Origin: Gemmatimonadota bacterium
GTDB taxonomy: Bacteria; Gemmatimonadota; Gemmatimonadetes; Longimicrobiales; Gaopeijiaceae
Assembly: GCA_028873595.1 (NCBI GenBank)
Contig: JAPPOV010000026.1
Coordinates: 124,001 to 188,000, forward strand
Length of the DNA stretch: 64,000 nucleotides
Direction of reading: 5' to 3'
The notes beneath the pieces were generated by a model. It was given only the letters and a program-made list of their open reading frames with translations. It was not told the DNA's origin and searched no databases. This document shows, one piece after another, positions 11,077 through 62,850 of this stretch. The translations under genes were made by a program, and so were the position numbers. The stretch's first letter is position 1. Each line of letters begins with the position of its first letter.

Positions 11077-11095
11077 CTCAGAAACACCGCACTCC

Positions 11096-46515: not shown

Positions 46516-47928
46516 TCAGCTCCCCTGAATCGCTGGCGCTTCGCGTTCCCGACGCCCCACTGCGATCGACGCGAGCAGCACGATCAGCAGAGCCCACGAG
46601 TGCACGTTGTGCAGCCCGGCGTCCCAGGGTGAGATCCTTGGAAGCCCTTCGACGCCGGCTGTCATGGAGGCGGCGAGGATCGTCGGGATGAAGAAGGGGA
46701 GGATGAACGGGTAGGTGCAGACCGTCACGTCGAGAATGTTTGCTCGTCGGTAGGGGCCGACGCCGGCGTTCCTGCCGACCTCTTTGGCGAGCGAGCCCAC
46801 GGTGAGGATCGCCACCGCCGAGTGCGTCGTGAGAACCGTCGCGCCGCTGATCGACCCGAAGATCCACCACTCTGCGCCTCGTGCGCTCTCTGCACGCTCT
46901 TCCACCCAGACGATCAGTCGGTCGAGGAGCCCGGATGCGGTCAGGCCTCCGACCAGCCCCATCAGGAGGATCGTGAAGATCGACACGCCGAACGCACGCC
47001 TCATGCCATCCAGGATGATGCCGGTGGCGATGAAGTTGTCAGGGTCGATGGAAAGCAGGTCCGATGTATTGAAGCGGTCGAGTCCGAGCCCGAGCACGAC
47101 GCCGAATCCGATTCCCGCGAAGAGCCCGACGACCAGGTGTGTGCGGCGCAGGAGCAGGATGAGTACGGCAGCTGGAACGACGAGCATCACCAGTCCGGCC
47201 GGATCTCCTTGGCGTGTCAGCGCGCCGTCCGCACCCGCCGCTCCCCCGAAGAGTGCGAATACGCCGATCGCAACCGCGGCTGCGGGAAGGGCGTACTGCA
47301 TGCGAGACCGAACCACTCCACCGAGGTCTGCGTCCTGCGTCGTAGACGACGCGATGGTCGTGTCCGAGATGGGCGAGACGTTGTCACCGAAGGTGGCGCC
47401 GGCAAGGATCGCACCGATCGCGAACGCGGGGTCCGCCCCGAGGGATGCAGCGGCTGGGTAGAGGAGTGGCGCGCACACGAGAATGGTGCCGAGGCTCGTA
47501 CCGGTGGCAGTCGAAAAGACGGCACAGACCAGAAAGATGGCCACCGCGAATCCACCGCCCCGCACCCCGGTCGCCGACGCGGTCCACACCAGGGCATCGA
47601 CCAAGCCGCTATCTCGGAGCACGACCCCCATGACTCCGGCGAGCAGCCATGCGAGGATGAGCAGCATGACGATGCGGTGGCTCATGCCGTCCATCACCGC
47701 TTCGGCGTAGCGGGCGGGATCGCGGGCGAGCAGGACACCGACACCGAGTGCGACGATCAGGATTGGGCCGAAGCCGGTCTCGTCAGGTGCTCCGGAGAGG
47801 CCGAGCCAGGAGACCCCTCCGAGGAAGACCAGGAAGGGTACGAGGGCCCCGAACCAGCCGCCTCGAAATTCGAGCGGCGTGTCGTGATTCGGTGCGGTCG
47901 GGGGCGAAGCAGCGGGCTGGTCGGGCAT
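46516..47928 (-). CDS. NhaC-family sodium/proton antiporter
   Basis: The 470-residue protein has about eleven or twelve membrane segments and the NhaC-type motif GATFGDNVSPISDTTIASS (about residue 178). It would exchange sodium for protons across the inner membrane; family members also move malate/lactate or amino acids. An upstream in-frame start exists, but ATG at 47928 is preferred. It is the second gene of a minus-strand pair with the CDP-alcohol phosphatidyltransferase, 8 bases away. Confidence 0.85.
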   Translation of the reverse strand: MPDQPAASPPTAPNHDTPLEFRGGWFGALVPFLVFLGGVSWLGLSGAPDETGFGPILIVALGVGVLLARDPARYAEAVMDGMSHRIVMLLILAWLLAGVMGVVLRDSGLVDALVWTASATGVRGGGFAVAIFLVCAVFSTATGTSLGTILVCAPLLYPAAASLGADPAFAIGAILAGATFGDNVSPISDTTIASSTTQDADLGGVVRSRMQYALPAAAVAIGVFALFGGAAGADGALTRQGDPAGLVMLVVPAAVLILLLRRTHLVVGLFAGIGFGVVLGLGLDRFNTSDLLSIDPDNFIATGIILDGMRRAFGVSIFTILLMGLVGGLTASGLLDRLIVWVEERAESARGAEWWIFGSISGATVLTTHSAVAILTVGSLAKEVGRNAGVGPYRRANILDVTVCTYPFILPFFIPTILAASMTAGVEGLPRISPWDAGLHNVHSWALLIVLLASIAVGRREREAPAIQGS

Positions 47929-47936
47929 GAAACGAT

Positions 47937-48671
47937 TCAGCTTGTCCGGGGCCGGAGGAGCCACACCGTGTCGATCCCGAACGACCAGGTCAACATCGCA
48001 AGAGCCAGGGCCGCGACTGCAACGGCGACCGGGCCGGGTATGATCGGTCCCAGGGCGACCAGAAGCGCGATCCCTTGGATCACACAGACCAGCTTTCGAC
48101 GGAAGCTCGGAAAGAGCTCCTCACGTAGCGCCGGCAGAACGAAACTTGCAGCGACGAAGAGGTATCGCATGGCCCCGATCAGAAGGACCCATGCGCCGGC
48201 TCGCGCTTCCGTCCATACGAGGCAGGAGAGCACCAGCATCAGAAACGCATCCGTCTCCATGTCGAAGAGTGCCCCGAAGCCTGTGGTGGTGCGGGTCCGG
48301 CGGGCGACCCAACCGTCCACGCCATCCAGCAGCATGATCACGGTGCCCAACCCGACGATCCACCAGCGTCCGGTCGTTCCCAGGGTGTCCGCGTGCATGA
48401 CGAGTCCCGCCAGGGAGAGCGTCCCGATTGTGCGCAGAAGGGTGACGCGATTCGCAGGGCCGAGCCCACGGTGGGGTAAAGGGTCCGGCAGGGTCGCGAG
48501 GATCAGCGCCCCGGTTGCGGCGTACAGTGCGCCCACGGCTACCAGATAGGTAGCCGGGAGGTCGAGGACGCTCCACGTTGCAGCGGCGACGAGGAGCGTT
48601 ACCGCGAGGCCGACGAGCAATTCCGGAATGGCCTGCGCACGAACTCCCCTCAAGAAAGGGGCTGTGGACAT
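47937..48671 (-). CDS. CDP-alcohol phosphatidyltransferase
   Basis: The 244-residue membrane protein carries the complete family motif: D116, D119-G120, A123-R124, G133, D137 and D141, exactly spaced. It would join a CDP-activated lipid to an alcohol (or the reverse polarity, as in inositol or archaetidyl transferases). Six or so hydrophobic segments are present. The ATG at 48671 overlaps the ATG of the opposite-strand dehydrogenase within one CATG. No ribosome site is obvious. Its position beside sugar- and lipid-type genes suggests a specialised lipid. Confidence 0.85.
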   Translation of the reverse strand: MSTAPFLRGVRAQAIPELLVGLAVTLLVAAATWSVLDLPATYLVAVGALYAATGALILATLPDPLPHRGLGPANRVTLLRTIGTLSLAGLVMHADTLGTTGRWWIVGLGTVIMLLDGVDGWVARRTRTTTGFGALFDMETDAFLMLVLSCLVWTEARAGAWVLLIGAMRYLFVAASFVLPALREELFPSFRRKLVCVIQGIALLVALGPIIPGPVAVAVAALALAMLTWSFGIDTVWLLRPRTS

Positions 48672-49659
48672 GTCGGAAGAGAACACTACACGCGAATTCT
48701 GGGTCCAGGAGCCCGGTCGCGGAGAGATCCGTACCGGTCGGCTGGGTGCGGTCGGCGCCGATGAGGTCGTGGTGCGCACCATCTACTCCGGGATCAGCCG
48801 TGGGACGGAGGCCCTCGTATTTCGAGGTGAGGTGCCAGCCTCGCGGTTCGAGTCGATGAGGGCCCCGTTCCAGAGCGGCGACTTTCCTGCACCGGTGAAG
48901 TACGGGTACATCAGCGTAGGTGTCGTCGAGTCCGCCGGTGACGACGTCGTCGACTTTGTGGGCCAGATGGTCTTCTGCCTTTATCCTCATCAGGATCGTT
49001 ATGTAGTACCGGCTTCCGCCGTGACCGCTCTTCCGGAGGGAGTGCCGCCGGGGCGAGCGGTGCTCGCGGCCAACATGGAGACGGCGGTCAATGCGGTGTG
49101 GGACGCACAGGTCTCGGTCGGAGACCGTGTGCTGGTCATCGGTGCAGGTGTGGTCGGGCTCCTGATCGCATGGCTGATCTCCCGGATCCCGTCGACCGAT
49201 GTCATCATCATCGATGTAAACGAAGCTCGCGTGGGAGTCGCGGAGAGACTCGGTCTGCACTTCGCCACTGAGCCGCCCTCGGGTATGGATGCGGATGTGG
49301 TTCTCCATGCGAGCGGAAGCCCGGACGGTCTGAGCACCGCGTTGTCGGCAGCCGGTCCAGAGGGGCGGATCGTCGAGGTCAGCTGGTTCGGCGACCGGCC
49401 GGTGACGTTGCCGCTCGGGGAGAGTTTCCATGACCGGCGGCTCACAATTCGAAGCAGTCAGGTGGGCCGGATTCCACCAGAGCGAGCGCCGCGCTGGGAC
49501 TACGCCCGAAGAATGGTTGTCGCGCTGGAGTTGCTCGAGTCCGCTGCGGTGGATGCACTCATTTCGGACGAGAGCGCATTCGACGACCTCCCCGACGTGA
49601 TGGAACGCCTCGCGCGCTCCGGGGGAGACACGCTCTGCCACCGCATCCGTTACGACTGA
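48670..49659 (+). CDS. MDR-superfamily dehydrogenase lacking the usual zinc cysteine
   Basis: The 329-residue protein has the medium-chain dehydrogenase fold: an N-terminal GroES-like part ([22 protein letters not shown]) and a nucleotide-binding fold ([17 protein letters not shown]). At the position of the catalytic zinc cysteine it has serine (YSGISRGTE), and the structural-zinc cysteines are absent, so it is probably zinc-free. AAAGGGG lies 8 bases before the ATG at 48670. The PTPS-like gene follows after 16 bases, so it likely oxidises or reduces an intermediate of that pathway. Confidence 0.8.
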
Positions 49660-49675
49660 ACCCCAGAGGATCGAC

Positions 49676-50074
49676 ATGTACAAGCTCAACGTTCGTGACC
49701 ACTTCATGATCGCCCACAGCTTCCGGGGTGAAGCCTTCGGGCCGGCTCAGCGTCTTCACGGTGCGACGTACGTCGTCGATGCGACGTTCAAGCGCGCGGA
49801 ACTCGACGAGGATGGTCTGGTCGTCGACATCGCCCTTGCGGGAGAGCAACTGAAGGCGGTCCTCGATGACCTGAACTATCGGAATCTGGACGAGGTAGCG
49901 GCGTTCGAGGGGAAGAACACGACGACCGAATTCCTGGCCCGTGAGATCCAGGAGCGCCTCGTGCGTGCGGTCCACGATGGCAAGCTGGGCCCGAACGCAT
50001 CGGGCTGCAGCGCCATCGAAGTGACCCTGAACGAGTCGCACGTCGCGTGGGCGAGCTACGAAGCGAGCGTGTGA
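49676..50074 (+). CDS. 6-pyruvoyltetrahydropterin synthase/QueD homologue with altered active site
   Basis: The 132-residue protein has the PTPS fold pattern: DHFMIAHSF (His14), RLHGATY (His28), [13 protein letters not shown] and VTLNES. Compared with QueD and PTPS, the second histidine of LHGH is Ala30, the catalytic cysteine before it is replaced (GPAQRLHG), and the LDHHxLN catalytic histidine segment reads LNYRNLDE. Two zinc ligands and the pterin-anchoring glutamate region remain. It is therefore unlikely to do the standard reaction and probably belongs to a distinct subfamily acting on a related substrate. Its stop overlaps the GT4 start. Confidence 0.82.
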
Positions 50075-51150
50075 CCGCCGCGCCGCCGGCATTCCACCTG
50101 ATCGTTCCGGGGCCGCTCGATCAGCGGACCGGGGGCTACCTCTACGACGCACGCATCGTCTCGGAGTTGGCGGCTCTCGACACGTTGGTGCAGGTGCACT
50201 CGATCCCGGGGCGTTTTCCGGACGCAGACGACCTCGCGCGTTCCGGGCTCGATCGGGCACTCGCCGCGATCGCCGACGGTAGCTCCGTCGTCATCGACGG
50301 CCTGGCATCCGGTGGGCTTCCCGATGTGGTTGCTTCGCACGCAGACCGGCTGGCAATCGTAGCGCTCGTACACCATCCACTTGCCGACGAGACGGGCCAG
50401 ACCTCGGCACAGACCGAGTATTTCTTCGCTTCGGAGCGTGACGCGCTGCGACACGTGCGGGGCGCCATCGTGACCAGTCCATTCACGGCTCGCCGTCTAG
50501 CGGACTTTGACGTACCGGAGGGTCGGATCCACGTGGTCGAGCCCGGAACGGATCCCACCAGCGTCGCCGTGGGTCCACCTGATGGAGACGCGCCTCGCCT
50601 TGTCTGCGTGGCATCCCTCAGTCCGCGAAAAGGTCACGATCTGCTCGTCGAGGCGCTGGCTCGCCTCCGGGCCCTGGAGTGGAGTTGTGTGTGCGCTGGA
50701 AGCACGACGCGGGACGAGGACTTCGCCGGCGAAGTTCTGGCTGAGGTCGAGAGGCTGGGGTTGCGTGACCGGATCCACTTCCCCGGCGAACTCGAGACGG
50801 ACGACATCGAAGAGGTATACCGGACGGCCTCACTGTTCGTGCTCCCCTCTCACTACGAGGGATACGGCATGGCATACGCAGAGGCTCTGGCGCGTGGCAT
50901 TCCTGTCGTCGGGACGACGGGCGGAGCGATCCCCGATACGGTGCCGAGCTATGCCGCGATTCTCATCCCACCCGGGGATGTCGATGCACTGACCGAAGCT
51001 CTCGAGAGCTTGCTCGTGGCCCCCGATCGATGCGAGACGCTCGCCGAGGGGGCGCGCATGCACGCCGAGTCGCTGCCCGGATGGGCGACTCAGGCGGAGC
51101 GGTTCCGGGTGGCAGTCGATGTGCTCACGGCTCGGGGTCCTCGTGTCTGA
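50071..51150 (+). CDS. Family 4 (GT-B) glycosyltransferase
   Basis: The 359-residue GT-B enzyme has an N-terminal acceptor domain ([20 protein letters not shown]) and a C-terminal donor domain with [35 protein letters not shown] (the EX7E motif) and [10 protein letters not shown]. It transfers a nucleotide sugar with retention. GTG at 50071 overlaps the PTPS-like stop as GTGA and its own end overlaps the methyltransferase start, so these genes are translated as a chain. Glycosylation of the pathway product or of a lipid carrier is the likely role. Confidence 0.88.
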
Positions 51151-51946
51151 CGAGGTCTTCAGCGCGGACTGGCTGGCGCTCCGGGAAGCAGCGGACCATC
51201 GCTCCCGGGCGCACGAGCTTGCGGACCGACTTGGGCGGACGGGTCAGGCGGCGGGGTGGACGCACGTGCTCGATCTGGGTTCCGGCACGGGGTCCAACCT
51301 GCGTTACCTGGCGCCACGGTGGCCGTGGGTTCGGTCGTGGACGCTTCTCGACCACGACGCGCGGCTCTTGGGCGCGGCCTCAGCGCCCGGCATCGCTGAT
51401 CCGATCCGACTCGTCGGTGACCTGGCTGCCGAAGGGGTCGACGCGATCTCCTCGGCGGATGTCGTTACCGCGTCCGCCCTGCTCGATCTCGTGTCGGAGG
51501 AGTGGATGACCCGGGTGGTTGATGCGTGCGCCGCCCGTGGAGCTGCCGCGCTCTTCACCCTCAGCTACGACGGATCGATCGACTGGCGTGACGAGGATCC
51601 GGACGATGGACTCGTTCGCGAGGCGATGAACGCTCATCAACGCCGGGAGAAAGGGATCGGTCGTGCACTTGGGCCCGATGCGACGGTCGTCGCAGATCGA
51701 CTCTTTCGGGAGGCAGGCTACAAGACGTGTCTCCGGCCGAGTCCGTGGATTCTCAACGGGCTGAAGGATCGTGAACTGACCCTCGCGCTGATGCAGGGCT
51801 GGATCGAGGCGTCGATCGAGTTGCGTCCGACCGATGCCGACCGGCTGCGCGCGTGGCAGTCGCGCCGAGCCGCGACCGTACAGGCCGGAGCCTACGAGGT
51901 GATGGTCGGGCATTGCGACGTGCTCGCCGTGCCGTCAGATCCGTGA
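51143..51946 (+). CDS. Class I SAM-dependent methyltransferase
   Basis: The 267-residue protein has the SAM-binding motif HVLDLGSGTGSNLRYL (about residue 42) followed by an acidic loop, SADVVTASALLDLVSEEW and LFTLSYDG. It lacks membrane segments. The acceptor is unknown. GTG at 51143 lies eight bases inside the GT4 gene and its stop overlaps the flippase start, which points to an enzyme of the same pathway. Confidence 0.82.
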   Translation: MSDEVFSADWLALREAADHRSRAHELADRLGRTGQAAGWTHVLDLGSGTGSNLRYLAPRWPWVRSWTLLDHDARLLGAASAPGIADPIRLVGDLAAEGVDAISSADVVTASALLDLVSEEWMTRVVDACAARGAAALFTLSYDGSIDWRDEDPDDGLVREAMNAHQRREKGIGRALGPDATVVADRLFREAGYKTCLRPSPWILNGLKDRELTLALMQGWIEASIELRPTDADRLRAWQSRRAATVQAGAYEVMVGHCDVLAVPSDP

Positions 51947-52929
51947 CGCGCCGAACCCTCCTGCTGGTCGCACGGGGCGTGACGAGCGTGGCACTGTTCG
52001 GCGCGCTTGGATTCTTCCTTGAGCCTCGAGACGTGATGGCGCGGCTGGTGGAGATGGATCCAGCCTGGGTCTCCATTGCGCTGCTACTCTCGATTGCTCA
52101 GGTCGTCGGCTCTGCCTGGCGATGGCGCTTCACCGCCGGGCGCCTCGGCCTCGAGTTGCCCATGCCTCGAGCCGTCTCGGAGTACTACCTGGCGACCTTC
52201 CTCAATCAGGTGCTTCCCGGCGGAGTCGTGGGTGACGTCTCGCGAGCGTGGCGTCATGCCCGTGAGGCTGACACGCGGGCATCCGTGCAGTCGGTCGCGT
52301 TCGAGCGACTCTCCGGTCTCATTGTGATGAGCGTGGTCGCGGCCGTCTCCGCCTTGCTGCTTCTGGGCGACGTCTCTGCCGGTGCTCGCATGGGGCTCGG
52401 GCTCCTCATTGTGAGTGGCCTCGGGTGGGCCCTTTGGACCGCAGGCCGAGCCCGTGCTCGCCCGGGATCGACTCAGCTCATGCATGACCTGAGGCGTGCG
52501 CTCCTGGACGGCTTGGCGTTTCCCGTACAGCTCTCGAGCTCGGCCGCGGTTGTGGCGAGCTATATCGCGATCTTCGTCATGGCCGGCCGTGCCGTTCAGG
52601 TCGATATGTCCGGATTGATGCTCGCGATGCTCGCCGGACCTGTGCTCATGTCGATGCTCGTGCCGATGACGATCGCGGGGTGGGGCCTGCGCGAGGTCGC
52701 TGCCGCAGCGCTCTGGAGTGCCGCGGGCCTCACGGCCTCCGACGGAGTAGCGGTTTCCGTGTCCTACGGCCTGCTCGTGCTCGTTTCGAGCTTGCCCGGT
52801 GCCGCGATCCTCGGGCTCACGCTCCTTCGGAGCGGAGATCCAGGTCGAAGAGGAGATCCGAACCGAGGAGAACGTGCCGAATCGCAGGCCGACGCGCCTG
52901 CTCCAGACTCTCGATCTGGGGCAGGGTGA
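51943..52929 (+). CDS. UPF0104/lysylphosphatidylglycerol-synthase-type flippase-like membrane protein
   Basis: The 328-residue protein has seven or eight membrane segments and the family motifs YYLATFLNQVLPGGVVGDVSRAWR and FERLSGLIVMSV. This domain is the flippase half of MprF and, alone, is suspected to move lipid-linked molecules. The last 30 residues are a charged, proline-rich tail. GTG at 51943 overlaps the methyltransferase stop. The final 113 bases overlap the RibD-type gene on the opposite strand. Confidence 0.83.
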   Translation: MTRRTLLLVARGVTSVALFGALGFFLEPRDVMARLVEMDPAWVSIALLLSIAQVVGSAWRWRFTAGRLGLELPMPRAVSEYYLATFLNQVLPGGVVGDVSRAWRHAREADTRASVQSVAFERLSGLIVMSVVAAVSALLLLGDVSAGARMGLGLLIVSGLGWALWTAGRARARPGSTQLMHDLRRALLDGLAFPVQLSSSAAVVASYIAIFVMAGRAVQVDMSGLMLAMLAGPVLMSMLVPMTIAGWGLREVAAAALWSAAGLTASDGVAVSVSYGLLVLVSSLPGAAILGLTLLRSGDPGRRGDPNRGERAESQADAPAPDSRSGAG

Positions 52930-53533
52930 TCCCCGGTCGTCCCGACCCGATGAGGAGCGAGGCGACAGAGACGTGCAGTCGATCCAGAAGATCCGCTTCC
53001 AGGAAGCTGGAGACCGTTCGACCTCCGCCCTCGATCAGCACGCGACGGAGCCCGCGAGCGTCGAGTTCCGCGAGCACGTCAGCCGGATCGAACGTGTTCG
53101 CCGGTGCAGGCAGAACGACGATCTGGACATGTTCAGCGGCGTGCGGGTCTCTGGCTTTACCTTCGGAATCCAGACGATTCGCTGCCTCGCTCTGTATCCA
53201 GAGGGTCGATGCGGCACCGTCCGTGAAAATCGCGCGAGCAGGATCGAGCCGTCCGCGGGGATCCAAGGCGACTCGGACCGGGTTTGGTCCTTCGACGTGG
53301 CGCACGGTCAAGCGCGGGTCGTCGGCTTCGACGGTGCCCGCACCGACGACGACCGCGTCTACTAGTGCACGGAGTCGATGCAGGCGCTCGATGTCTTCAG
53401 GGCCGTTGATGTAGTGCGAATGGCCCGACACCGTCGCGATTCGGCCGTCGAGGCTCTGACCGAGTTGGCCGATGACGAATCGATCGAGTCGTTCGAGCGG
53501 GGCGAAGAGGTCGTCCAGATCGGTCAGGATCAC
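52817..53533 (-). CDS. RibD-type reductase (dihydrofolate-reductase fold)
   Basis: The 238-residue protein matches the reductase domain of RibD/ArfC: FVIGQLGQSLDGRIATVSGHSHYINGPED, LRALVDAVVVGAGTVEADDPRLTVR and VLIEGGGRTVSSFLEADLLDRL. It lacks the zinc deaminase domain of full RibD. Such enzymes reduce the ribosyl side chain of the GTP-derived pyrimidine with NADPH. GTG at 53533 follows the creatininase stop by one base. No other riboflavin gene is near, so a dedicated pathway is likelier than housekeeping riboflavin synthesis. Confidence 0.85.
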   Translation of the reverse strand: MILTDLDDLFAPLERLDRFVIGQLGQSLDGRIATVSGHSHYINGPEDIERLHRLRALVDAVVVGAGTVEADDPRLTVRHVEGPNPVRVALDPRGRLDPARAIFTDGAASTLWIQSEAANRLDSEGKARDPHAAEHVQIVVLPAPANTFDPADVLAELDARGLRRVLIEGGGRTVSSFLEADLLDRLHVSVASLLIGSGRPGITLPQIESLEQARRPAIRHVLLGSDLLFDLDLRSEGA

Positions 53534-53534
53534 G

Positions 53535-54326
53535 TTACGACTCCGGTCCCTCGAAGCGTTCGACCGGAAATACCGATGCATCGCGCACGATGTCCGCCAG
53601 GATCGCACCGTAATGCTCGATGAGCCGGTGTCCGAGCTCCGCAGTGGCGAGGGTCGCGTCCCCGGTTACCCCGTCCGGATTCAGGTCCTGAGCGAGCCAG
53701 GCGAAGGGTGCGACACCCTCGGGCCGGATCCATGCCATCTCGTGCTCGAGCTCTTCACCGAATGATTCGAATCGACGGATCTCTTTTCGACGGACGAGGT
53801 CCGGTCGCAGGTGCAGCATCATCGCCGTTTCAAGCGCCCCGCCGTGCAACCCATGAGTCCACTCGGCATCAGGCAGCGACACATTGCCCGGTCCTGGGAA
53901 GCGGAAGTAATTCGCCTTTACGACGAGCATGTCGTATTCGAGCCGAATGCGAATCGCGGCGGAATCGAGAACCGCCTTGTTGCCCCCATGGCTGTTCATG
54001 AGAACGAGACGACGGATGTCGGCGGTGTACAGACTGCCGGCGATCTCGCTCAGGGTCTCCTCCAGTGACTTCGGCGTAAGTGTCAGCGTGCCGGGGAAGG
54101 CGAGGTGTTCCGGACTGGCTCCGACCACCTGGGCGGGGAGCACGACGTGGGGCACGTCCTCGAGCCGACCCACCGCGTTTGCGATGAGTCCGGCCCCGAT
54201 CTCTACGTCCGTGGAGAGCGGAAGGTGTGGTCCGTGCTGCTCGATGGCCGCGACCGGGAGGATCACGACGGGGTCACGCTCGGCGAGGTTCGCCACCTCG
54301 GGGCTGGTCATCTCGTGCCACTTCAT
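53535..54326 (-). CDS. Creatininase-family amidohydrolase
   Basis: The 263-residue protein has the metal ligands of the family: E29 and H31 in AAIEQHGPHLPLSTD, D40, H113 in MNSHGGN, and E166 in HGGALETAMM. The family includes creatininase, the mycofactocin peptidase MftE, and the archaeal deformylase ArfB, which acts on a GTP-derived formamidopyrimidine. Encoded directly before a RibD-type reductase and in the same block as a GTP cyclohydrolase II, an ArfB-like or related pyrimidine hydrolase is an attractive guess. ATG at 54326 matches the family start. Confidence 0.85.
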   Translation of the reverse strand: MKWHEMTSPEVANLAERDPVVILPVAAIEQHGPHLPLSTDVEIGAGLIANAVGRLEDVPHVVLPAQVVGASPEHLAFPGTLTLTPKSLEETLSEIAGSLYTADIRRLVLMNSHGGNKAVLDSAAIRIRLEYDMLVVKANYFRFPGPGNVSLPDAEWTHGLHGGALETAMMLHLRPDLVRRKEIRRFESFGEELEHEMAWIRPEGVAPFAWLAQDLNPDGVTGDATLATAELGHRLIEHYGAILADIVRDASVFPVERFEGPES

Positions 54327-54337
54327 TCGTTGGCCCC

Positions 54338-55081
54338 TTAGTCGGTAGGCATGTGACGGGCATAAAGATCTCCGGATGAGATCCCGCTCGCTTCGCCGGC
54401 GAGCCACGCACGGACATCGGTTGCCGAACGCCACGTCGACCACAGAAAGTCTCGCCCCTCGCCACGGATCGCATTGTACTCGTACTGAGCCAGCGATTCG
54501 AGCCGGTCGACGCATTCCGTGGTGACCTGGAGTGTGCCCGCGACGAACTCGATTGAGAGCGCCTCGATGGGTCGGGACAGGCCAGCGAGGACATCGGCCT
54601 CGAAGCCCTCGACGTCGATCTTGCAGAAACGTGGTGCGCCGAACTGGTCGATGAGGTCGTCCATCGTCGTGACCTCAACCTCCGTGGAACGGTTCCAGCG
54701 GACGCCCCGGAACGTCGGGTTCTCGTGCACGACGGCATCGCGCCAACCGTCGGCGAGTGTCGATAGCGTCGGGTTGGCGTCGCTGACGGCGAGACGTGCC
54801 GTGCCGGCCCTCCGGCCCACGGCGGCCGGAACCACGGTCACACCCGGTCGCCGACCGACCAGGCGTCGCAACCAGGGGAGAAGGTGCGGCTGAGGCTCGA
54901 GGGCGATTACGCGAGCACCGAGCCTGGAAAAGGCGGCCGTTCGGTCCCCGAGGTGTGCCCCGACGTCGAAGACGAGATCACCGCGACCGACGAACGGAGC
55001 GTACAGGGCCCGAAGGCCTGCCTGTCGACCGGGGCGCCAGTACACCACCACTGAACGGAGCAGGCCCAGCCAGCGTCGCAC
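54338..55081 (-). CDS. FkbM-family SAM-dependent methyltransferase
   Basis: The 247-residue protein has the FkbM pattern: LVFDVGAHLGDRTAAFSRLGARVIALEPQP as motif I and FCKIDVEGFEADVLAGL as the conserved core. FkbM enzymes usually O-methylate sugars or polyketides. GTG at 55081 overlaps the upstream stop by one base, and the creatininase gene starts 11 bases after its end. This makes a second methyltransferase in the 46-63 kb block. Confidence 0.83.
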   Translation of the reverse strand: MRRWLGLLRSVVVYWRPGRQAGLRALYAPFVGRGDLVFDVGAHLGDRTAAFSRLGARVIALEPQPHLLPWLRRLVGRRPGVTVVPAAVGRRAGTARLAVSDANPTLSTLADGWRDAVVHENPTFRGVRWNRSTEVEVTTMDDLIDQFGAPRFCKIDVEGFEADVLAGLSRPIEALSIEFVAGTLQVTTECVDRLESLAQYEYNAIRGEGRDFLWSTWRSATDVRAWLAGEASGISSGDLYARHMPTD

Positions 55082-56715
55082 TAGGGTCGGTCCTGTACGG
55101 CGGACGGCGTAAACGCATTCACGAACCAGTCGCGAAACGTGTCCATCCGTCGGACGTCATCTAGAGCCGGAGGGATGACACCGGGCGCGAAACCCCATTC
55201 CATGAACGGAGCGAGAACCTCAGGGTCGCGGCCGATGACGTGGACCGGAACCGCGCGGCTCGCATCTTCGCCCGTGATGAGTGGAGCGGGTTGATGATCA
55301 CCGAGCGCGATCAGCACCGTCGTGTCGTCGACGTATCTCACCGCGTACGAGGCCATGGCGTCGATCGCGTAGCCTACTGCGAGTGCGTAGTGCTCTCGCA
55401 CTCGATCACCGTGTCGCCAGAGCTCTTCCGGGGTCTCGCCCATGTCGGCAAAGGAGTCGAAGACTTCACCGTTGCCGATGGAATCCCAGTCGTCGAGGAC
55501 GGGCAGGACCGGCGTCCATGGTGCGTGGCTGCTGATGAGTCCGACCTCCGCGAACAGTGGTCGGTCATCGGTTCTGCGGATCGTGTTCTCGAGGTAGGAC
55601 CAGGTGAACTGATCGGGCATCGTCACCCAGTTCAGAGACGGCCCGGCGTAGTCGATGTCCTCCCACGCGTGGATTCGCTCATAGCCGAAGCGGTCACCCT
55701 CGGGCCACGCCATCGTGATCGCGGGCATCAGCGCCGCGGTCCGGTACCCTGCGGCCTCGAAGTCGTCGACGAGCGTCTGGCGGTCGCTCGCCAGCAGAAG
55801 GTCGTACCGCAGCTGATTTTCCAACCATAGCCCGCTCAGGAGCGATCCGTGTCCCAGCCACGACATACCCCCCTGACTGGGTGCGACGAGCTGGCCCGTC
55901 GCAATCAGGAGACCTGCGGAGTCGAATGCCTGGAGCATCGAGTCGAGTCGGGGACGGATGGTCGGTGCGTACCGCTCGTCGTCGATTGCAGACATGCCGT
56001 ACGACTCCACGAAGGCCAGGATCAGATCGCGTCCGTCCAGCCCCGCGAGGAGTCCCGGCATATCGGCATAGTGATCGGGCGCGACGGCCATCTCCGCACC
56101 GAATCGCTCGTTTTCCTTCATCATGCTCGCAACGTGCCGAACCTGCTCGCGCGTCAATTGAACGGCCGGAAGGGCGAGGGCCACGCCGCTCGGGTGGATC
56201 CAGCGGGCCGGTACGGCGACGAGTGCCGTCACGAGTGCTGCGACCCCGACGATCCACTGACGCCGGTTCCCGCGTTCCGGGTGAAGTGTGGAGAGCAGAT
56301 ACCCGAGCAGGATCGCTGCGGCGATGGCCGCGATTGCTGCTCCGACAAGTACGAGCGTGCCGATCACGGTTCCGAGTGTGCCGCGAAGCAGATCCGCGAC
56401 TGCGCTCACCAGCTGGACATCCAGATACAGGTTGAGTGGGCGCGCGAGGCTCATGCGGGCGGTTGTGTCGCCGAGTTGCAAGACGCCTAGGGTGATCACG
56501 AGAAGTCCACATAACCAGGCCGCAGCCTCGGTCCAGCGGGATCGCGGAAGGAGCAGGAACGCCGCGGTCAGGATCGCGGCCTCGAGGGCCAGCACGTGCG
56601 GACCAAAGTCCCGGTTCAGAATCCAGATCGGGATCAGAAGGAAAGAATTGGCCAATACGAGGGTAGCTATTGCCCTCGCACTTCTTCCCGGCCTTTTCCA
56701 GATCTTTCTCGTCAT
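55081..56715 (-). CDS. Membrane-anchored sulfatase-superfamily protein (phosphoglycerol/phosphoethanolamine transferase-like)
   Basis: The 544-residue protein has five N-terminal membrane helices (about 15-180) and a periplasmic alkaline-phosphatase-superfamily domain. LILAFVESYGMSAIDD supplies the first metal-site residues, SQGGMSWLGHGS the nucleophile region, and LIALGDHQPAPLI the second metal-binding Asp-His. It resembles LtaS/OpgB-type enzymes that move phosphoglycerol or related groups from a lipid to a glycan. Next to opgG/opgH, decoration of periplasmic glucan is likely. The predicted ATG overlaps the opgG ATG within one CATG; an ATG 36 bases upstream is an alternative. Confidence 0.8.
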   Translation of the reverse strand: MTRKIWKRPGRSARAIATLVLANSFLLIPIWILNRDFGPHVLALEAAILTAAFLLLPRSRWTEAAAWLCGLLVITLGVLQLGDTTARMSLARPLNLYLDVQLVSAVADLLRGTLGTVIGTLVLVGAAIAAIAAAILLGYLLSTLHPERGNRRQWIVGVAALVTALVAVPARWIHPSGVALALPAVQLTREQVRHVASMMKENERFGAEMAVAPDHYADMPGLLAGLDGRDLILAFVESYGMSAIDDERYAPTIRPRLDSMLQAFDSAGLLIATGQLVAPSQGGMSWLGHGSLLSGLWLENQLRYDLLLASDRQTLVDDFEAAGYRTAALMPAITMAWPEGDRFGYERIHAWEDIDYAGPSLNWVTMPDQFTWSYLENTIRRTDDRPLFAEVGLISSHAPWTPVLPVLDDWDSIGNGEVFDSFADMGETPEELWRHGDRVREHYALAVGYAIDAMASYAVRYVDDTTVLIALGDHQPAPLITGEDASRAVPVHVIGRDPEVLAPFMEWGFAPGVIPPALDDVRRMDTFRDWFVNAFTPSAVQDRP

Positions 56716-58405
56716 GACACCCGTGCTTCGTGCTCGTCTGTCTTCGACCATCCTCCTTGCGGGGATGTTCGGCGCGTGCGTCAGCGAAGACCTTCCTCGT
56801 CCGAGCAGTGATCGCGACGAGTCCGCGGCCCTCCGCACCGAAGGGGTGGAGAATGTAGCGGCTGTCGTGACCATGCCGGATTGGGTTTCCGAGTCCGGTG
56901 GGCCGACACTGTTCGAACACGTTACCGAATATGCGCGACTTCGTGCCCAGGTCGGGTATCGTGCGCCGGCGTCGACCGTGTCTCCCGTGGTGTCCGGACT
57001 GACGTACGATCAGTACCGCGGCATTTCGTTTCGGTCGGATCAGGCGGTGTGGACGGGCACGGGTCCGTTCGAAGTTCATTTCTTCCACCCGGGTGGCGGA
57101 AACGACGTGCCGGTACAGATCCATCTGGTCGAAGATGGTCGGGCGACGGGTCTAGACTTCGATTCGGGCTTTTTCTCGTACGGGGACGAAACCGAGGGCC
57201 TCGACATGAGCCTTTCGCCCAAAGCGGGCTTCGCTGGGCTGAAGGTGCTCTTTCCGCTGAACGATGAGTCCCGCATGGACGAGGTCGTTTCCTTCCTCGG
57301 GGCGTCGTACTTCCGCCTGCTCGGGCCCGGACATGTGTACGGTCTGTCGACGCGTGGCCTTGCTGTCGATGTCGCTCGACCGGAGGGTGAAGAGTTTCCC
57401 GACTTTGTCGAGTTCTGGCTGGTGCGACCGTCGCCCGAAGCCCGGACTCTGACGATCGTAGCTCTTCTCGATGGGCCTTCGGTGGCTGGTGCCTTCCACT
57501 TCGTGCTGACTCCGTCGCCCGACCGGATCGCACCCACGATCATGGACGTAGAGGCCCGGCTCTTCGCCCGCACGGATGTCGGCAAGCTCGGAGTGGCCCC
57601 GCTCACCAGCATGTACTTGCACGGCACCTTCGCACGGGGTGGGGACGATGACTTCCGACCGCGAGTGCACGACTCGGAGGGCCTTCTCATGCATACCGGT
57701 CGAGAGGAGTGGATCTGGAGACCGCTCACCAACGGGTCCGGCGTTCGACTTACCTCGTTACGCGACGTGTCGCCGTCGGGCTTCGGCCTCGTTCAGCGTG
57801 ATCGTGCGTTCGAGAACTACCTGGACCTCGAAGCCCAGTACCACCGTCGCCCCAGTGAGTGGGTTCAGGTTCAGGGAGAGTGGGGCCGTGGAGGAGTCGA
57901 GCTCCTCGAAATTCCGACGGACTCGGAGTTCAACGACAACATCGTGGCGTCGTGGGTCCCCGAAGCGCCGTTTCGGGCCGGAGAGGAACGCACGTATCGA
58001 TACCGGCTCGTGACCTTCGACCAACGCTTCGACGAGGAGGCCGAGGTCGCGTCCGGGCAGGGTCAGACGCTGGCGCAGGTGAAGCACACTCGGATCGGTT
58101 GGGATGCCCTTCCAGGTGAAGCCTCGCCGCCTCCGCGGAGCCAGCGACGAGTGGTCATCGACTTTGGAGGTGGTGTCCTGAACGACATCGCCGAGGACGC
58201 GAGTATCGTTGCCGATGCCCAGACCTCGTCTGGAGATATCTCCGATCTGCTGGTTCACGTTCTTCCCGACGGAGGCCGGCGCGCGACGTTCACGCTTGTG
58301 CCTGAGGTGGGCCGCGGAGCGGATATGCGCGTATATCTCCGGCTCGACGGTCGATCGATCAGTGAAACGTGGAGCTATCTGTGGGAGCCGCCGCGTGTCC
58401 CTTGA
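56714..58405 (+). CDS. opgG: OpgG/MdoG-type periplasmic glucan biosynthesis protein, lipid-anchored
   Basis: The 563-residue protein matches OpgG: LTYDQYRGISFRSDQAVW, FPLNDESRMDEVVSFLGASYFR, GLSTRGLAVDV, MYLHG and the C-terminal immunoglobulin-like part. OpgG shapes osmoregulated periplasmic glucans after OpgH synthesises the backbone. The N-terminus has a lipobox (LLAGMFGAC), whereas the E. coli protein is soluble in the periplasm. The residues between the anchor and the OpgG core are a low-complexity linker. The stop overlaps the next start by 11 bases. Start at 56714 has no clear ribosome site. Confidence 0.88.
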   Translation: MTPVLRARLSSTILLAGMFGACVSEDLPRPSSDRDESAALRTEGVENVAAVVTMPDWVSESGGPTLFEHVTEYARLRAQVGYRAPASTVSPVVSGLTYDQYRGISFRSDQAVWTGTGPFEVHFFHPGGGNDVPVQIHLVEDGRATGLDFDSGFFSYGDETEGLDMSLSPKAGFAGLKVLFPLNDESRMDEVVSFLGASYFRLLGPGHVYGLSTRGLAVDVARPEGEEFPDFVEFWLVRPSPEARTLTIVALLDGPSVAGAFHFVLTPSPDRIAPTIMDVEARLFARTDVGKLGVAPLTSMYLHGTFARGGDDDFRPRVHDSEGLLMHTGREEWIWRPLTNGSGVRLTSLRDVSPSGFGLVQRDRAFENYLDLEAQYHRRPSEWVQVQGEWGRGGVELLEIPTDSEFNDNIVASWVPEAPFRAGEERTYRYRLVTFDQRFDEEAEVASGQGQTLAQVKHTRIGWDALPGEASPPPRSQRRVVIDFGGGVLNDIAEDASIVADAQTSSGDISDLLVHVLPDGGRRATFTLVPEVGRGADMRVYLRLDGRSISETWSYLWEPPRVP

Positions 58406-61400
58406 GCTGAACAGCCCCTTCGTACGAACCCGTCGAACCATCTATTTCGGTCTCGTCGGTGCTACGACGCTGGCGGGCATGTTCATGATGGCCGGCATCG
58501 TGTCTGCGCAGGGATTGACGCTCCTGGAGTTCGTGATTCTCGCGCTCTTCGCTCCGACCTTCGGCTGGATCGTCATGCCGTTCTGGACGGCGGTGATCGG
58601 GTTCGTACTGTACATTACGGGCCGTGATCCCGTGACACTCTCCGCGCGCAGCCCCGTCGTGTGCTCCGTGATCGCAGATAGGCTGTCATTGCGCGGGCTG
58701 CCGCGCACTGCTGTCGTTGTTCCGGTCTTCAATGAGGATCCGGCCCTCGTCGCGGCTCGAGTCTCAGCACTCATGCAGTCTCTGAGGCGCGTGACGCTGG
58801 GAAGCGAGTCTGTACACGTCCACCTTCTCTCCGATACCCAGGACGACGGGATCGCGCAGCGTGAGCGAGTGGAATGGGTCGAGCTTCAGGCACGGCATCC
58901 CGAGATCCCGGTACACTATCGTCGGCGTACCCGAAACGAGGGGCGGAAGGCGGGGAATATCGGAGAGTTCTGTCGGCGGTGTGCGGACGACTATGACCTG
59001 ATGGTCGTCCTCGATGCCGACTCTCTCATGACCGGGGAGGCCATTGTGCATCTGATTCGACAGATGCAGGCTAACCCCGACGTCGGCCTCATTCAGACGG
59101 TTCCGATGCCGGTCCTGCAGCGTTCGCTGTTCGGACGACTGATCCAGTTTGCGGGGAGGCTCTACGGGCCTGTGCTGGCGACGGGCCAGGCATTCTGGTA
59201 CGCCGACTCGGCGAACTACTGGGGCCACAACGCAATCATGCGCCTCCGCCCATTTCTCGAGCACGCCAGGCTTCCGGTATTGAGTGGCCGCCCGCCTCTG
59301 GGGGGAGAGGTTCTAAGTCACGACTTCGTGGAGGCGGCGCTTATGAGGCGAGCTGGGTGGCGGGTCGTGCTTGCCACTGATCTGCCGGGAAGCTGGGAAG
59401 AGGTGCCGCCCAACGTTGATGACTACGCACGTCGGGATCATCGTTGGGCGCAGGGCAGCCTGCAGCATCTGCGCTTGTTCGCAGAGAGAGGTCTGCACCC
59501 GTTGAGCCGCCTGCACTTCGTGCTCGGTGCCATGGGGTATGTGTCATCTCTCCTCTGGCTGCTGATCCTCGTGGCCGGAACCGCATACGTCCTGGCTCCG
59601 TGGAGCCACGGTCCCGTTCTCATCGACCGACAGGTGGTGCCTCCGCCGATCTTCTCCCTCCTCGGACTTACCGCCGTCGTGCTCCTGGTACCGAAAGCAC
59701 TTGGTCTCATGGCTGGACTGCTTCGGGAACGAGCTGCCTTTGGAGGCGCGATGCGCATGGTGGTCAGCGCCGGCCTCGAGACCGTGTTTTCGGTGCTGCT
59801 TGCGCCGCTGATGATGCTGTGTCACGCGCGCTCTGTCGCCGAGATCGTGCTAGGGCGCAGCGTGGGCTGGGGTACGCAGAATCGTGAGCGAACGGATCTG
59901 AGCTGGGTCGATGCAGCGCGGGCCGCGGGCTGGCCGACCCTGGTCGGTCTGGTATTGGGCGGTACAACGCTCGCGCTCAGCCCGCTCTTCTTTGCATGGA
60001 TGAGTCCCATCTTCCTCGGGCTCGTTCTCAGTATCCCGCTGGTCCGGTGGACCAGTCTTCGTGGACTGGGTCAGCGCGCGTACGCTGCCGGCTTGCTGCT
60101 CGTGCCTTCCGAGGTCGATGAACCCGCTGAGGTCGCTTCGGTACGGATGGTGCAGGACACCGTCGGGCGACCGGATCCGACACGACCGTTGGGGGTTCTG
60201 ACAGCTCGCTCGGTTGCGTCTTCAAGTCCCCTCCCAGTAAGTCGCAGTATGTACAACGCAGAACGCGGACTCTTCGATCTTCGCCAAGGGCGCTCGCTCC
60301 TGATCACGGATTGTGGGGCTGTTCACCCGGGCGATGTGCCTGAGACGGGTGTCCTCGTGGCATCCGTCGAGGGACTTGATCCGGCAGCCCTCGATCGACT
60401 TCGGGATATGGGGTCTGAGCCGCTCCGGCTGGTTTTGACCGCACATCGGGTCGGAGCGATGGGCCTTTCGCCGGAGACGTCGAATGCGGTCCCCTCCAGT
60501 AGCTATTCAATAGCGCTTCGACACAACGTGGAACTTCATGAGGTGCTTGCACTGGCCTGCTCTGCAGACACCGATCACGACGCAGTGGCTTGGACGCTGT
60601 CGTCTGCTGCTCCGGCTGAGTCAGCGGGGCTTTCGCTTGTGCACCTTGCACGCTTGATACCGGCAGTGGTCGCGATCCCCATTTGGGCTCCACAGACTCT
60701 TCAGCTCCGAGAAGCGCTAGAGAGTGGTGAGATCCTCACCGTCGACCAGAACGAGGTGCACGAGTTTGTCGCCTCATCGGGGGTCGACGTCGTAGCGGTC
60801 AGCGAAGCGCCTGTGCCGCTAGAGGACGCGGTAGACTCCCGCTTTGTGCTCTTTCGCGAGTCGTACGGACTCCATGAGCACATCGCAGTCATGGTCGGCA
60901 ACCGAGATCAGTGGCCCGATCCTGTTCCGGTCCGTCTCCACTCCGCCTGTCTGACCGGTGACCTCTTTGGGAGCCTCCGTTGTGACTGTGGTGAACAGCT
61001 CCGCCGCAGCATGGAGGTCTTCAAGTCTCGGGGTGGTGGCGTACTGCTCTATCTTGCGCAGGAAGGACGAGGGATCGGACTGCACAACAAGTTCCGTGCG
61101 TACACCCTCCAGGAGGGTGGGCTCGATACCATCGATGCAGATCACACACTCGGGTTCGGGGCCGATGAGCGACGCTACGTTGCTGCCGCGCGAATGCTGC
61201 AGCACCTCGACCTTGAACGTATCGAACTGTTCACCAACAACCCCGAGAAGCTCCAGGCCATGGAAGACTCAGGGATCACGGTCGTCGGTCGGAAGGCTCT
61301 GCACGGGACGCTGAACCGCCACAACCGCCCGTACGTCGAAGCGAAAGTTCACCGGGCTGGGCACTGGCTGAAGGACATGCTAGCGCAGCCAAGGTCGGGG

Positions 61401-61406
61401 GACTGA
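58395..61406 (+). CDS. Fusion: OpgH glucan glucosyltransferase + GTP cyclohydrolase II
   Basis: This continuous 1003-residue frame joins two families. Residues 1 to about 590 are OpgH, a membrane GT2 making the beta-glucan backbone: VVPVFNEDP, VVLDADSLM, WYADSANYWGHNAIMR and RRDHRWAQGSLQHLR, with membrane helices on both sides. The FtsZ-binding N-terminal tail of E. coli OpgH is missing. From about 619 there is a degenerate DHBP-synthase-like segment and then GTP cyclohydrolase II: zinc cysteines C852, C863 and C865 in CLTGDLFGSLRCDCG, QEGRGIGLHNKFRAYTLQ, and FTNNPEKLQAM. Start is GTG at 58395. An internal ATG at 60249 could allow separate cyclohydrolase synthesis, though no good ribosome site precedes it. 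Confidence 0.88.
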   Translation: MSLELNSPFVRTRRTIYFGLVGATTLAGMFMMAGIVSAQGLTLLEFVILALFAPTFGWIVMPFWTAVIGFVLYITGRDPVTLSARSPVVCSVIADRLSLRGLPRTAVVVPVFNEDPALVAARVSALMQSLRRVTLGSESVHVHLLSDTQDDGIAQRERVEWVELQARHPEIPVHYRRRTRNEGRKAGNIGEFCRRCADDYDLMVVLDADSLMTGEAIVHLIRQMQANPDVGLIQTVPMPVLQRSLFGRLIQFAGRLYGPVLATGQAFWYADSANYWGHNAIMRLRPFLEHARLPVLSGRPPLGGEVLSHDFVEAALMRRAGWRVVLATDLPGSWEEVPPNVDDYARRDHRWAQGSLQHLRLFAERGLHPLSRLHFVLGAMGYVSSLLWLLILVAGTAYVLAPWSHGPVLIDRQVVPPPIFSLLGLTAVVLLVPKALGLMAGLLRERAAFGGAMRMVVSAGLETVFSVLLAPLMMLCHARSVAEIVLGRSVGWGTQNRERTDLSWVDAARAAGWPTLVGLVLGGTTLALSPLFFAWMSPIFLGLVLSIPLVRWTSLRGLGQRAYAAGLLLVPSEVDEPAEVASVRMVQDTVGRPDPTRPLGVLTARSVASSSPLPVSRSMYNAERGLFDLRQGRSLLITDCGAVHPGDVPETGVLVASVEGLDPAALDRLRDMGSEPLRLVLTAHRVGAMGLSPETSNAVPSSSYSIALRHNVELHEVLALACSADTDHDAVAWTLSSAAPAESAGLSLVHLARLIPAVVAIPIWAPQTLQLREALESGEILTVDQNEVHEFVASSGVDVVAVSEAPVPLEDAVDSRFVLFRESYGLHEHIAVMVGNRDQWPDPVPVRLHSACLTGDLFGSLRCDCGEQLRRSMEVFKSRGGGVLLYLAQEGRGIGLHNKFRAYTLQEGGLDTIDADHTLGFGADERRYVAAARMLQHLDLERIELFTNNPEKLQAMEDSGITVVGRKALHGTLNRHNRPYVEAKVHRAGHWLKDMLAQPRSGD

Positions 61407-61413
61407 CAAGCCG

Positions 61414-61764
61414 ATGGCTGCGTCTGACGAGTTCACCCTGTATGACCTCCGCGTGGAGGTAGTCGCCGGCGACGGGCCCATGGTGTGCAATCATGTCGTC
61501 GGTGATTACTTCGAGCTCTCCGGCGAGAATCTGAGCCTGCCACCAGGTCAGACGTTTCCGCTGTACCCACTGGCTGCGCTCCTGCCCCTCCTGCCGGCGA
61601 AGCAGCGCGAGACGCACCCCCACGACTGGATGACCACGGACATGGAGATCGCGTGCCCAGACCCGCTCTGTGGCGCTCGATTCCGGATCACGCGAACCGG
61701 ACGGTCCACGTTCCGTCACTCCGAAGTGACGCGCGTGCCCCTCGGAGACGATGAGCGTTTGTAA
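61414..61764 (+). CDS. TIGR04076-like small protein
   Basis: The 116-residue protein resembles TIGR04076 proteins: LYDLRVEVVAGDGPMVCNHVVGDYFELSGENLSLP, then LAALLPLLPAKQRETHPHDWM and a cysteine pair in IACPDPLCGARFRI. The cysteine spacing could bind metal. No function is established for the family. It starts 7 bases after the OpgH-cyclohydrolase fusion, so it is cotranscribed. Confidence 0.75.
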   Translation: MAASDEFTLYDLRVEVVAGDGPMVCNHVVGDYFELSGENLSLPPGQTFPLYPLAALLPLLPAKQRETHPHDWMTTDMEIACPDPLCGARFRITRTGRSTFRHSEVTRVPLGDDERL

Positions 61765-61806
61765 TCTCGGGACCGTCTGGCTGATCAGTGACGGGTCACG
61801 ACTGAG

Positions 61807-62850
61807 GTGACGGTCGACCGCTACGAGCTGAGTCCCGGGTACTCGATCAGTCGACTGATCCACGGTGGATGGCAGTTCTCCTCCGGCCATCGCCTCACAC
61901 AATCGGGTCTCAACGACGCCGTGGATGTCCTCGAGGCGTCGGCGGAGCTTGGGGTCACGACCTTCGACTGCGCGGACATCTACACCGGGGTCGAGGAACT
62001 GTACGGGCGTTTTCTGCGGCGCTGGGCATCGAGCTCGAACGACGCTCCGATCCAGATTCACACGAAGTTCGTGCCGGACTGGTCGGATTTGCCGAAGGTC
62101 GATCGGGCTTACGTGACTCGGATTATCGATCGCTCCTTGGCGCGACTCGGCGTAGAGCGACTGGACCTCGTCCAGTATTACTGGTGGAGGGACGAAGTCC
62201 CGGGCTTCGAAGAAGCCGCTGTGTGGCTCGATGACCTCCGAAAACAGGGGAAAATCCGGCACGTTGCTGTCACGAACCTCGATGTACCACGGCTACGTCG
62301 ACTCGATCAGGCTGGTGTGTCTCCGCTCACCAACCAGGTGCAGTACTCGCTCCTGGATCGTCGTCCAGCGGGTGCACTCACAACGCGCTGTTCGGAGTCG
62401 GTGATGCGGATCCTCGGGTTCGGAGCCTTGGCTGGTGGATTTCTGACCGACCGGTGGCTGCGCCAGCCCGAGCCTGAGGGGTACGCGAATCGGTCACTCG
62501 TGAAGTACCGCCTCATCATCGATGAATTCGGCGGGTGGCAGGCCTTTCAGAACCTTCTCGAGACGATGCGGGACATCGCATCGCGCCGCGGAGTGGAGAC
62601 GTCAGCTGTCGCGATTCGCTGGGTGCTCGATCAGCCAGGTGTCGCGGCCGTGATTTCGGGTGGAACGCGACTGGGTCAGATGGCTCGAAACGCCGCAGCG
62701 TTCGACTTCGAGTTCAGCGACGAAGACCGTGAGGCTCTACGAACACATGTCGATCGTGCGCCCGGGCCTTCGGGCGACGTCTTCGAGCTGGAGCGTGATC
62801 GAGACGGGCCTCACGGTCGGATCATGAAGTACGATCTCAATCGGGACTGA
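61807..62850 (+). CDS. Aldo/keto reductase family protein
   Basis: The 347-residue protein has the AKR barrel pattern: LIHGGWQFSS at strand 1, TTFDCADIYTGVEELYGRFL (catalytic Asp and Tyr), IHTKFVPDW (Lys), and the C-terminal GTRLGQMARNAAAFDF. The position of the catalytic histidine appears changed (LDLVQYYWWRDE). It would reduce a carbonyl with NADPH. Start is GTG at 61807, 42 bases after the TIGR04076-like gene. It closes the operon that starts with opgG. Confidence 0.85.
   Translation: MTVDRYELSPGYSISRLIHGGWQFSSGHRLTQSGLNDAVDVLEASAELGVTTFDCADIYTGVEELYGRFLRRWASSSNDAPIQIHTKFVPDWSDLPKVDRAYVTRIIDRSLARLGVERLDLVQYYWWRDEVPGFEEAAVWLDDLRKQGKIRHVAVTNLDVPRLRRLDQAGVSPLTNQVQYSLLDRRPAGALTTRCSESVMRILGFGALAGGFLTDRWLRQPEPEGYANRSLVKYRLIIDEFGGWQAFQNLLETMRDIASRRGVETSAVAIRWVLDQPGVAAVISGGTRLGQMARNAAAFDFEFSDEDREALRTHVDRAPGPSGDVFELERDRDGPHGRIMKYDLNRD

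Follow-up and report, generated by a model that had tools for sequence, protein, structure and literature searches.

Which molecule is made by a packed block of genes that joins GTP cyclohydrolase II (GCHII) and a PTPS-type protein with redox, sugar, methyl and lipid enzymes, and do these genes belong to one pathway at all? The question is raised by positions 46516-62850 of the window (the whole stretch of 64,000 nucleotides analysed, from contig JAPPOV010000026.1 of a Gemmatimonadota genome of 3.2 Mb). An earlier note, made from the DNA letters, read the block as a candidate undescribed pathway to a GTP-derived, glycosylated and methylated envelope compound. We find that these genes form a single mobile module for biosynthesis, here called the PTPS-IV module, and not a chance run of genes. 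It represents a real and widespread pathway, the nucleus of which has been glimpsed before.

The evidence comes from conservation of the gene set. A scan of species genomes with a PTPS alignment identified at least 559 confirmed relatives, and the best 80 loci were fetched for neighbour counts (many end at contig ends, which lowers the counts). Beside the PTPS-like gene in these 80 loci are genes for an MDR-type oxidoreductase (79 loci), a GT4 family glycosyltransferase (79), a class I SAM methyltransferase-like protein (MT; 73), a CDP-alcohol phosphatidyltransferase (CDPAP; 68), a stand-alone RibD C-terminal reductase (RibD_C; 57), a creatininase-family amidohydrolase (45), a flippase-like membrane protein (40), GCHII (37), an FkbM-family methyltransferase-like protein (37), a predicted phospho-alcohol transferase (SULF; 29), and OpgG and OpgH (23 each). 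The 13-gene set stays together in the Gemmatimonadota family of the host while its order shuffles: GCHII is found between RibD_C and the creatininase in locus L046, adjoins CDPAP in L049, and follows OpgH elsewhere. Across 59 genomes of the host order, module-type PTPS and RibD_C are distributed 20/1/1/37 (Fisher p 1.5e-13) and PTPS-IV and OpgG 19/2/1/37 (Fisher p 2.9e-12), with OpgG nearly absent where the module is missing. The p-values of these tests range from 1e-12 to 1e-14 and are indicative only, because the genomes were counted as independent and phylogeny was ignored. Thus the co-occurrence beyond the host genome on which the earlier note had staked its proposal is found, both in several phyla and in the 59-genome statistics.

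Copies of the module occur in Gemmatimonadota, Pseudomonadota, Acidobacteriota and Actinomycetota and on complete plasmids. Among the hosts are Thioalkalivibrio, Halomonas, Variovorax, Wenzhouxiangella, Thiohalocapsa, Methyloversatilis, members of the Acidobacteriota, and Actinomadura. Thioalkalivibrio versutus AL2 and strain ALJ7 carry CDPAP-MDR-PTPS-GT4-MT as one cluster, and a second, distant cluster holds FkbM-creatininase together with GCHII and RibD_C. The two clusters are complementary and jointly restore the gene set; the retention of both halves, although unlinked, is strong evidence for a single pathway. A compact ten-gene module is encoded on a plasmid of Rhizobium sp. SL42 (L182, 3516-13004), and other copies occur on complete plasmids of Agrobacterium, Thiodictyon, Streptomyces fungicidicus and Palleronia. 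In Methylosinus OB3b the plasmid module has mdoH adjoining, and in Microbacterium the module is on a 59-kb mobilizable plasmid. Complete Haloarcula plasmids encode a reduced set (creatininase, CDPAP, MDR, PTPS and GT4). These plasmids provide the archaeal evidence, and a Natrialbaceae locus (L132) from a metagenome-assembled genome was excluded as a possible binning error. Adjacency by descent of otherwise unrelated genes could explain some of the pattern, since the co-occurrence test has no correction for phylogeny and three genes of the block (for NhaC-like, aldo/keto reductase and TIGR04076 proteins) do hitchhike. This explanation is essentially refuted, however, by the persistence of the set across phyla and on archaeal plasmids with shuffled order, inversions, a fusion and split loci.

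Gene content of the block

Family calls were made by Pfam/NCBIfam profile searches of the window proteins. All of the gene families named earlier are present, and the four packed transcription units are as had been described. On the ORF map these are NhaC-CDPAP (-), MDR-PTPS-GT4-MT-flippase (+), sulfatase-FkbM-creatininase-RibD_C (-) and OpgG-OpgH/GCHII-TIGR04076-AKR (+). Adjacent genes within the units mostly overlap or sit no more than about 20 bases apart.

47937..48671 (-): CDP-alcohol phosphatidyltransferase, CDPAP (PF01066 1.1e-13; DGx2ARx8Gx3Dx3D motif intact)
48670..49659 (+): BchC-like MDR oxidoreductase (ADH_zinc_N) without the usual zinc ligands (profile matches and alignment)
49676..50074 (+): PTPS-IV type T-fold protein (PF01242 5.7e-25)
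50047..51150 (+): GT4 family glycosyltransferase (PF00534 4.8e-32)
51119..51946 (+): class I SAM methyltransferase-like protein, MT (PF13649 3.2e-5, weak)
51943..52929 (+): flippase-like membrane protein, LPG_synthase_TM without the synthase domain (PF03706 5.4e-34)
52817..53533 (-): stand-alone RibD C-terminal reductase, DARPP/ARPP reductase-like (PF01872 4.7e-41)
53535..54326 (-): creatininase-family amidohydrolase (PF02633 1.8e-66)
54338..55081 (-): FkbM-family methyltransferase-like protein (PF05050 4.9e-15, TIGR01444 9e-28)
55081..56874, probable start 56715 (-): SULF, predicted membrane-anchored LtaS/EptA-fold phospho-alcohol transferase (AlphaFold, Foldseek)
56714..58405, frame open from 56288 and start uncertain (+): OpgG/MdoG (PF04349 6e-163)
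58401..61406 (+): OpgH/MdoH fused in-frame to a PRK08815-type GCHII (MdoH 7e-216, PF00925 6e-52)

The GCHII family call was correct, but in the window GCHII has no gene of its own: it occupies the C-terminal end of the frame that encodes OpgH (about 60252-61406), with OpgH forming the N-terminal ~600 residues. The fused frame spans 58209/58401-61406. The same fusion is found in relatives L036, L038, L045 and L053, and the two genes are separate in L037, L043, L046, L047 and L049. The block also encodes an aldo/keto reductase (AKR; 3e-58), a NhaC-like antiporter and a TIGR04076 protein. These three are kept only in near relatives, and so are local neighbours outside the wider module, which comprises all other named genes (up to 13, from CDPAP to GCHII). 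Just outside the block, at 44725-46041, is a gene for Aconitase X (AcnX) beside a DUF819 membrane protein and a thioesterase; its linkage to the block is restricted to near relatives.

GTP-entry enzymes and the altered PTPS

The module GCHII has the zinc cysteines of HSxCLTGDxxxSxRCDC and the tyrosine of KxRAYxLQ, and C233, C244, C246 and Tyr284 are invariant in an alignment of 17 module proteins. Its N-terminal domain has no match to DHBP synthase (PF00926) up to E 10, and the protein is thus not recognizable as a bifunctional RibBA. The predicted structure matches GCHII 2bz0 and RibB folds, which suggests that the N-terminal domain is degenerate with a RibB-like fold kept. In module GCHII of actinomycetes the tyrosine is replaced, by His in Actinomadura and by Met in Streptomyces. 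RibD_C has the features of a DARPP/ARPP reductase, and its best solved matches are 2,5-diamino-6-ribosylamino-pyrimidinone-P reductases (top match 6p8c, 2e-25). The RibD_C of the window shares 50-76% identity with module RibD_C proteins, compared with 30-44% for RibD of riboflavin synthesis.

The host encodes separate riboflavin genes, ribD-ribE-ribBA at the end of contig C9 and ribH at the end of C12. The earlier note had asked whether such a set exists, and with the RibD_C identities it sets the GTP/pyrimidine entry enzymes of the module apart from those for riboflavin. A riboflavin duplicate was therefore rejected, on the complete separate set and on a GCHII without a recognizable DHBP synthase domain. 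More broadly, an auxiliary supply of riboflavin or flavins is disfavoured and very unlikely. GCHII and RibD_C are riboflavin enzymes, and the creatininase-family protein BrbF serves riboflavin in rhizobia (PMC9478397), but the module lacks a deaminase, RibH and RibE in addition to DHBP synthase.

The creatininase keeps its metal ligands (E29, H31, D40, H113 and E166 in the alignment). The earlier note placed it in the family of the deformylase ArfB. The family assignment holds, but the likeness to ArfB does not, with scores of 136 bits for MftE, 87 for creatininase and 20 for ArfB (cut-off 180). ArfB was thus rejected as an identification on its weak model score, leaving family-level support. 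At that level there is a precedent in BrbF of Sinorhizobium and Brucella, which is a proven AFRPP formamidase (PMC9478397), shares the protein family and would provide deformylation. BrbF differs in its riboflavin role and in its gene setting, beside MarR and CobW and outside any such module (PMC9478397).

The plasmid module of S. fungicidicus has its Met-substituted GCHII adjoining the creatininase. The Met at the Tyr105 position is presumably as in FAPy-forming SCO6655. SCO6650 and SCO6655 of Streptomyces coelicolor were reportedly studied by the Bandarian group in 2006-2008, and the Tyr-to-Met SCO6655 is said to stop at the formylated pyrimidine. GCHII of the Gram-negative modules differs in having the tyrosine and an N-terminal domain, and the Streptomyces module lacks RibD_C, OpgGH, FkbM and SULF.

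As the earlier note had proposed, the PTPS is altered. In an alignment of 18 sequences the FGPAQ signature is invariant, the third zinc His is replaced (FGPAQ...HGATY invariant, with HGA at this position), the catalytic Asp/His are replaced (mostly NYRNLD) and there is no catalytic Cys. Lacking in these sequences, therefore, are the features of catalytic PTPS or QueD (three zinc His, CxxxHGH or CxxxxxHGH, and LDHxxLN). FGPAQ, together with GCHII and RibD_C in the neighbourhood, assigns the protein to the PTPS-IV subgroup, and it is a full-length homologue of SCO6650 (PDB 3d7j; E 2.8e-63). SCO6650 reportedly lacks zinc and PTPS activity and retains a pterin-type pocket. In distant family members (L083/L047) PTPS-IV is ~70% conserved, compared with ~40-50% for its module partners, which is unusual given the lost catalytic residues. 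PTPS-IV genes (e.g., in L182, L185 and L188) are labelled '6-carboxytetrahydropterin synthase / queuosine biosynthesis' in public records despite the absence of catalytic residues. This is a systematic misannotation, and the misleading label is attached to the module in hundreds of genomes (the scan gave at least 559 loci that encode relatives of the PTPS-like protein).

PTPS-IV was recognized in 2017 as the FGPAQ subgroup of COG0720 (AGeNNT cluster-node 62; 561 sequences), with PF00925 and PF01872 in its neighbourhood (PMC5445326). The signature and these two neighbours are shared with the module described here. That study gave the two neighbours with no pathway or product, whereas up to 13 genes are joined here, including lipid, sugar, methyl, transferase and osmoregulated periplasmic glucan (OPG) components, and split loci, fusions and plasmid copies are also delimited. 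A 2016 review tied PTPS-IV to F420 in an unpublished remark (PMC5041015). That remark and the PTPS family itself could point to a branch of queuosine/7-deazapurine, folate, biopterin or F420 synthesis. We regard this as highly improbable, as the PTPS has other residues in place of the zinc ligand and the catalytic residues, a QueD-type homologue is encoded separately in the genome (G000:C35), and the annotated neighbourhoods of the module showed no genes for QueE/C/F, FolE or Cof. Two faecal phage-labelled contigs with 28-29% matches were taken as ordinary PTPS/QueD-like and set aside.

Link to the cell envelope

The membrane and export functions named in the earlier note are tied to the module by CDPAP (68/80) and the flippase-like protein (40/80), the gene for which is often inside the operon. 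OpgG and OpgH, the pair for OPG synthesis, are both encoded in the window (PF04349 6e-163; MdoH 7e-216). Their proposed link to the module is borne out by the co-occurrence in the host order (p = 3e-12), by the gene fusion and by adjacency of opgGH or mdoH in three genera (Halomonas, Wenzhouxiangella and Methylosinus).

SULF is too divergent for the Pfam cut-off (PF00884 at 0.002). Its AlphaFold model (pLDDT 85) has LtaP, MCR-1, LtaS, EptC, EptA and GacH as best Foldseek matches in the PDB, and E290, S338, H450, D526 and H527 are invariant. With a transmembrane anchor and an alkaline-phosphatase fold with metal-site residues, SULF has the architecture of LtaS, EptA and OpgB. We predict from this model, with good confidence, a transferase of the LtaS/EptA type that is anchored in the membrane and retains its catalytic residues. 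The likeness to OpgB, LtaS and EptA lies in the anchored alkaline-phosphatase-fold domain and its metal and active-site residues; SULF differs in its sequence (12-18% identity) and in a Ser in the nucleophile region.

These genes raise an alternative, that the module mainly decorates periplasmic glucan or lipid with a phospho-alcohol, in the manner of OpgB, and that the GTP enzymes supply a regulator or cofactor. The LtaS/EptA/GacH-like fold of SULF, the near restriction of OpgG to module-bearing genomes of the host order and the OpgH-GCHII fusion are consistent with it. We consider it unlikely, however: the module persists in Actinomycetota, archaea and many Proteobacteria without OpgGH (many proteobacterial loci lack opgGH nearby), and GT4, MT and PTPS are more conserved than OpgGH in the best 80 loci.

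Candidate product

The MDR protein has SxxSRxTE, which is invariant, in place of CxTD, and GY in place of GHE. The catalytic zinc ligands (Cys-His-Glu/Cys) are replaced in 14/14 aligned sequences, so that it does not qualify as a zinc-dependent alcohol dehydrogenase. The nearest solved relatives of GT4 are MshA-type and PimB-type enzymes, with a weaker match to a tetrahydrobiopterin glucosyltransferase (9v0l). Searches of NCBIfam and the PDB gave no substrate for either methyltransferase-like protein. The earlier proposal of sugar and methyl tailoring is supported.

From the gene set, its conservation, its separation from riboflavin synthesis, the intact and lost active sites and the link to OpgGH, all observed directly, we propose a pathway and consider the chances about even that the module makes a GTP-derived, glycosylated and methylated pyrimidine- or pterin-like polyol that is lipid-linked and exported. 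By family, the dedicated GCHII would open GTP, and RibD_C would reduce the ribose, giving a diaminopyrimidine with a ribityl-type polyol. The creatininase may strip an amide or formyl group, a step needed most clearly in Actinomycetota, where GCHII has lost the deformylating Tyr. The re-tasked PTPS fold and the zinc-less MDR might then form a pterin-like or pyrimidine-polyol core, although their reactions are speculative. GT4 would attach a sugar and one or two methyltransferases would add methyl groups. CDPAP and the flippase-like protein would provide a phosphodiester link to a membrane lipid and then exposure. In the host family, SULF probably passes a phospho-headgroup to the periplasmic glucan of OpgH/OpgG, which is speculative; for Gram-negatives such a transfer is plausible, and envelope attachment is a good hypothesis that falls short of a result.

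Several observations weigh against this pathway. Variovorax (L086, L102, L103 and L106) and Thiohalocapsa (L061) keep the core in genomes without a dedicated PRK08815-type GCHII, so that housekeeping enzymes or a different precursor can feed part of the chemistry. RibD_C is not nearby in the Actinomadura and Streptomyces plasmid modules. The window GCHII retains the Tyr that permits deformylation, and the role of the creatininase there is thus unclear. The methyltransferase family calls from profile searches are weak. OpgGH, near 23 of the 80 loci, cannot matter in Gram-positives; the glucan step cannot be a general one, given the presence of the module in Actinomycetota and archaea and the absence of a dedicated GCHII from Variovorax and Thiohalocapsa. 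In the open-access literature searched (most subscription journals lie outside it), no paper joins the module genes or names a product.

A further alternative is a soluble glycosylated pterin- or lumazine-like compound, redox-active or light-absorbing, with the lipid, flippase, SULF and OPG genes as accessories with their own envelope function. The MDR-PTPS-GT4-MT core is near-invariant and FLP (the flippase-like protein), SULF and OpgGH are rarer, pterin glycosides and pteridine glycosyltransferases have been described in bacteria, namely cyanobacteria and Chlorobium (PMC5683033, PMC13259868), and the tetrahydrobiopterin glucosyltransferase is a distant relative of the module GT4. We find this alternative rather doubtful, as CDPAP is itself near-core (also encoded by the plasmid modules of Streptomyces, Rhizobium, Microbacterium and Haloarcula) and the flippase-like gene is often within the operon. 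Pterin glycoside synthesis in cyanobacteria and by Chlorobium PGT has in common with the module a pterin-type core and a glycosyltransferase, but the known route starts with GTP cyclohydrolase I and an active PTPS and is without lipid or export genes (PMC5683033).

Of the product envisaged in the earlier note, the conserved pathway stands, and the pterin identity, the attachment to glucan or lipid and the action of every gene on the product are unproven. The description as undescribed holds for the product and the joined gene set, but PTPS-IV, its neighbourhood with GCHII and RibD_C, and SCO6650/SCO6655 had been noted before. Identification of the module product would explain the orphan PTPS-IV subgroup, SCO6650/SCO6655 of Streptomyces and the fusion of GCHII to an OPG synthase, and would connect nucleotide-derived chemistry with the cell envelope. 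The free-standing ten-gene plasmid copies make the question directly testable. Going further than the lipid-linked polyol itself, we tentatively raise as possible a new class of molecule in the cell envelope. A ribityl-pyrimidine or pterin-like headgroup derived from GTP would be glycosylated, methylated and carried on a phospholipid, and in many Gram-negatives it would be passed to periplasmic glucan; plasmids would have spread the module across bacterial phyla and to haloarchaea.

Other genes were found with the module on plasmids. In L182 (13026-13565), L184 (12528-13085) and L189 (12011-12544), the neighbour of RibD_C is a gene for a small, b561-like cytochrome b, which suggests a membrane electron-transfer step. 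The Palleronia plasmid (L190) encodes an inositol-monophosphatase-family protein and a PfkB carbohydrate kinase inside the module (5171-5974 and 10997-11887), a pair that fits, and hints at, a polyol-phosphate intermediate. Streptomyces linear plasmids also encode solitary PTPS-IV genes away from the module (L181, 10001-10399; L187, 9001-9426). Their neighbours are an MBL-fold hydrolase, cupins, a sigma factor and a BTAD regulator, and represent a second context for this protein.

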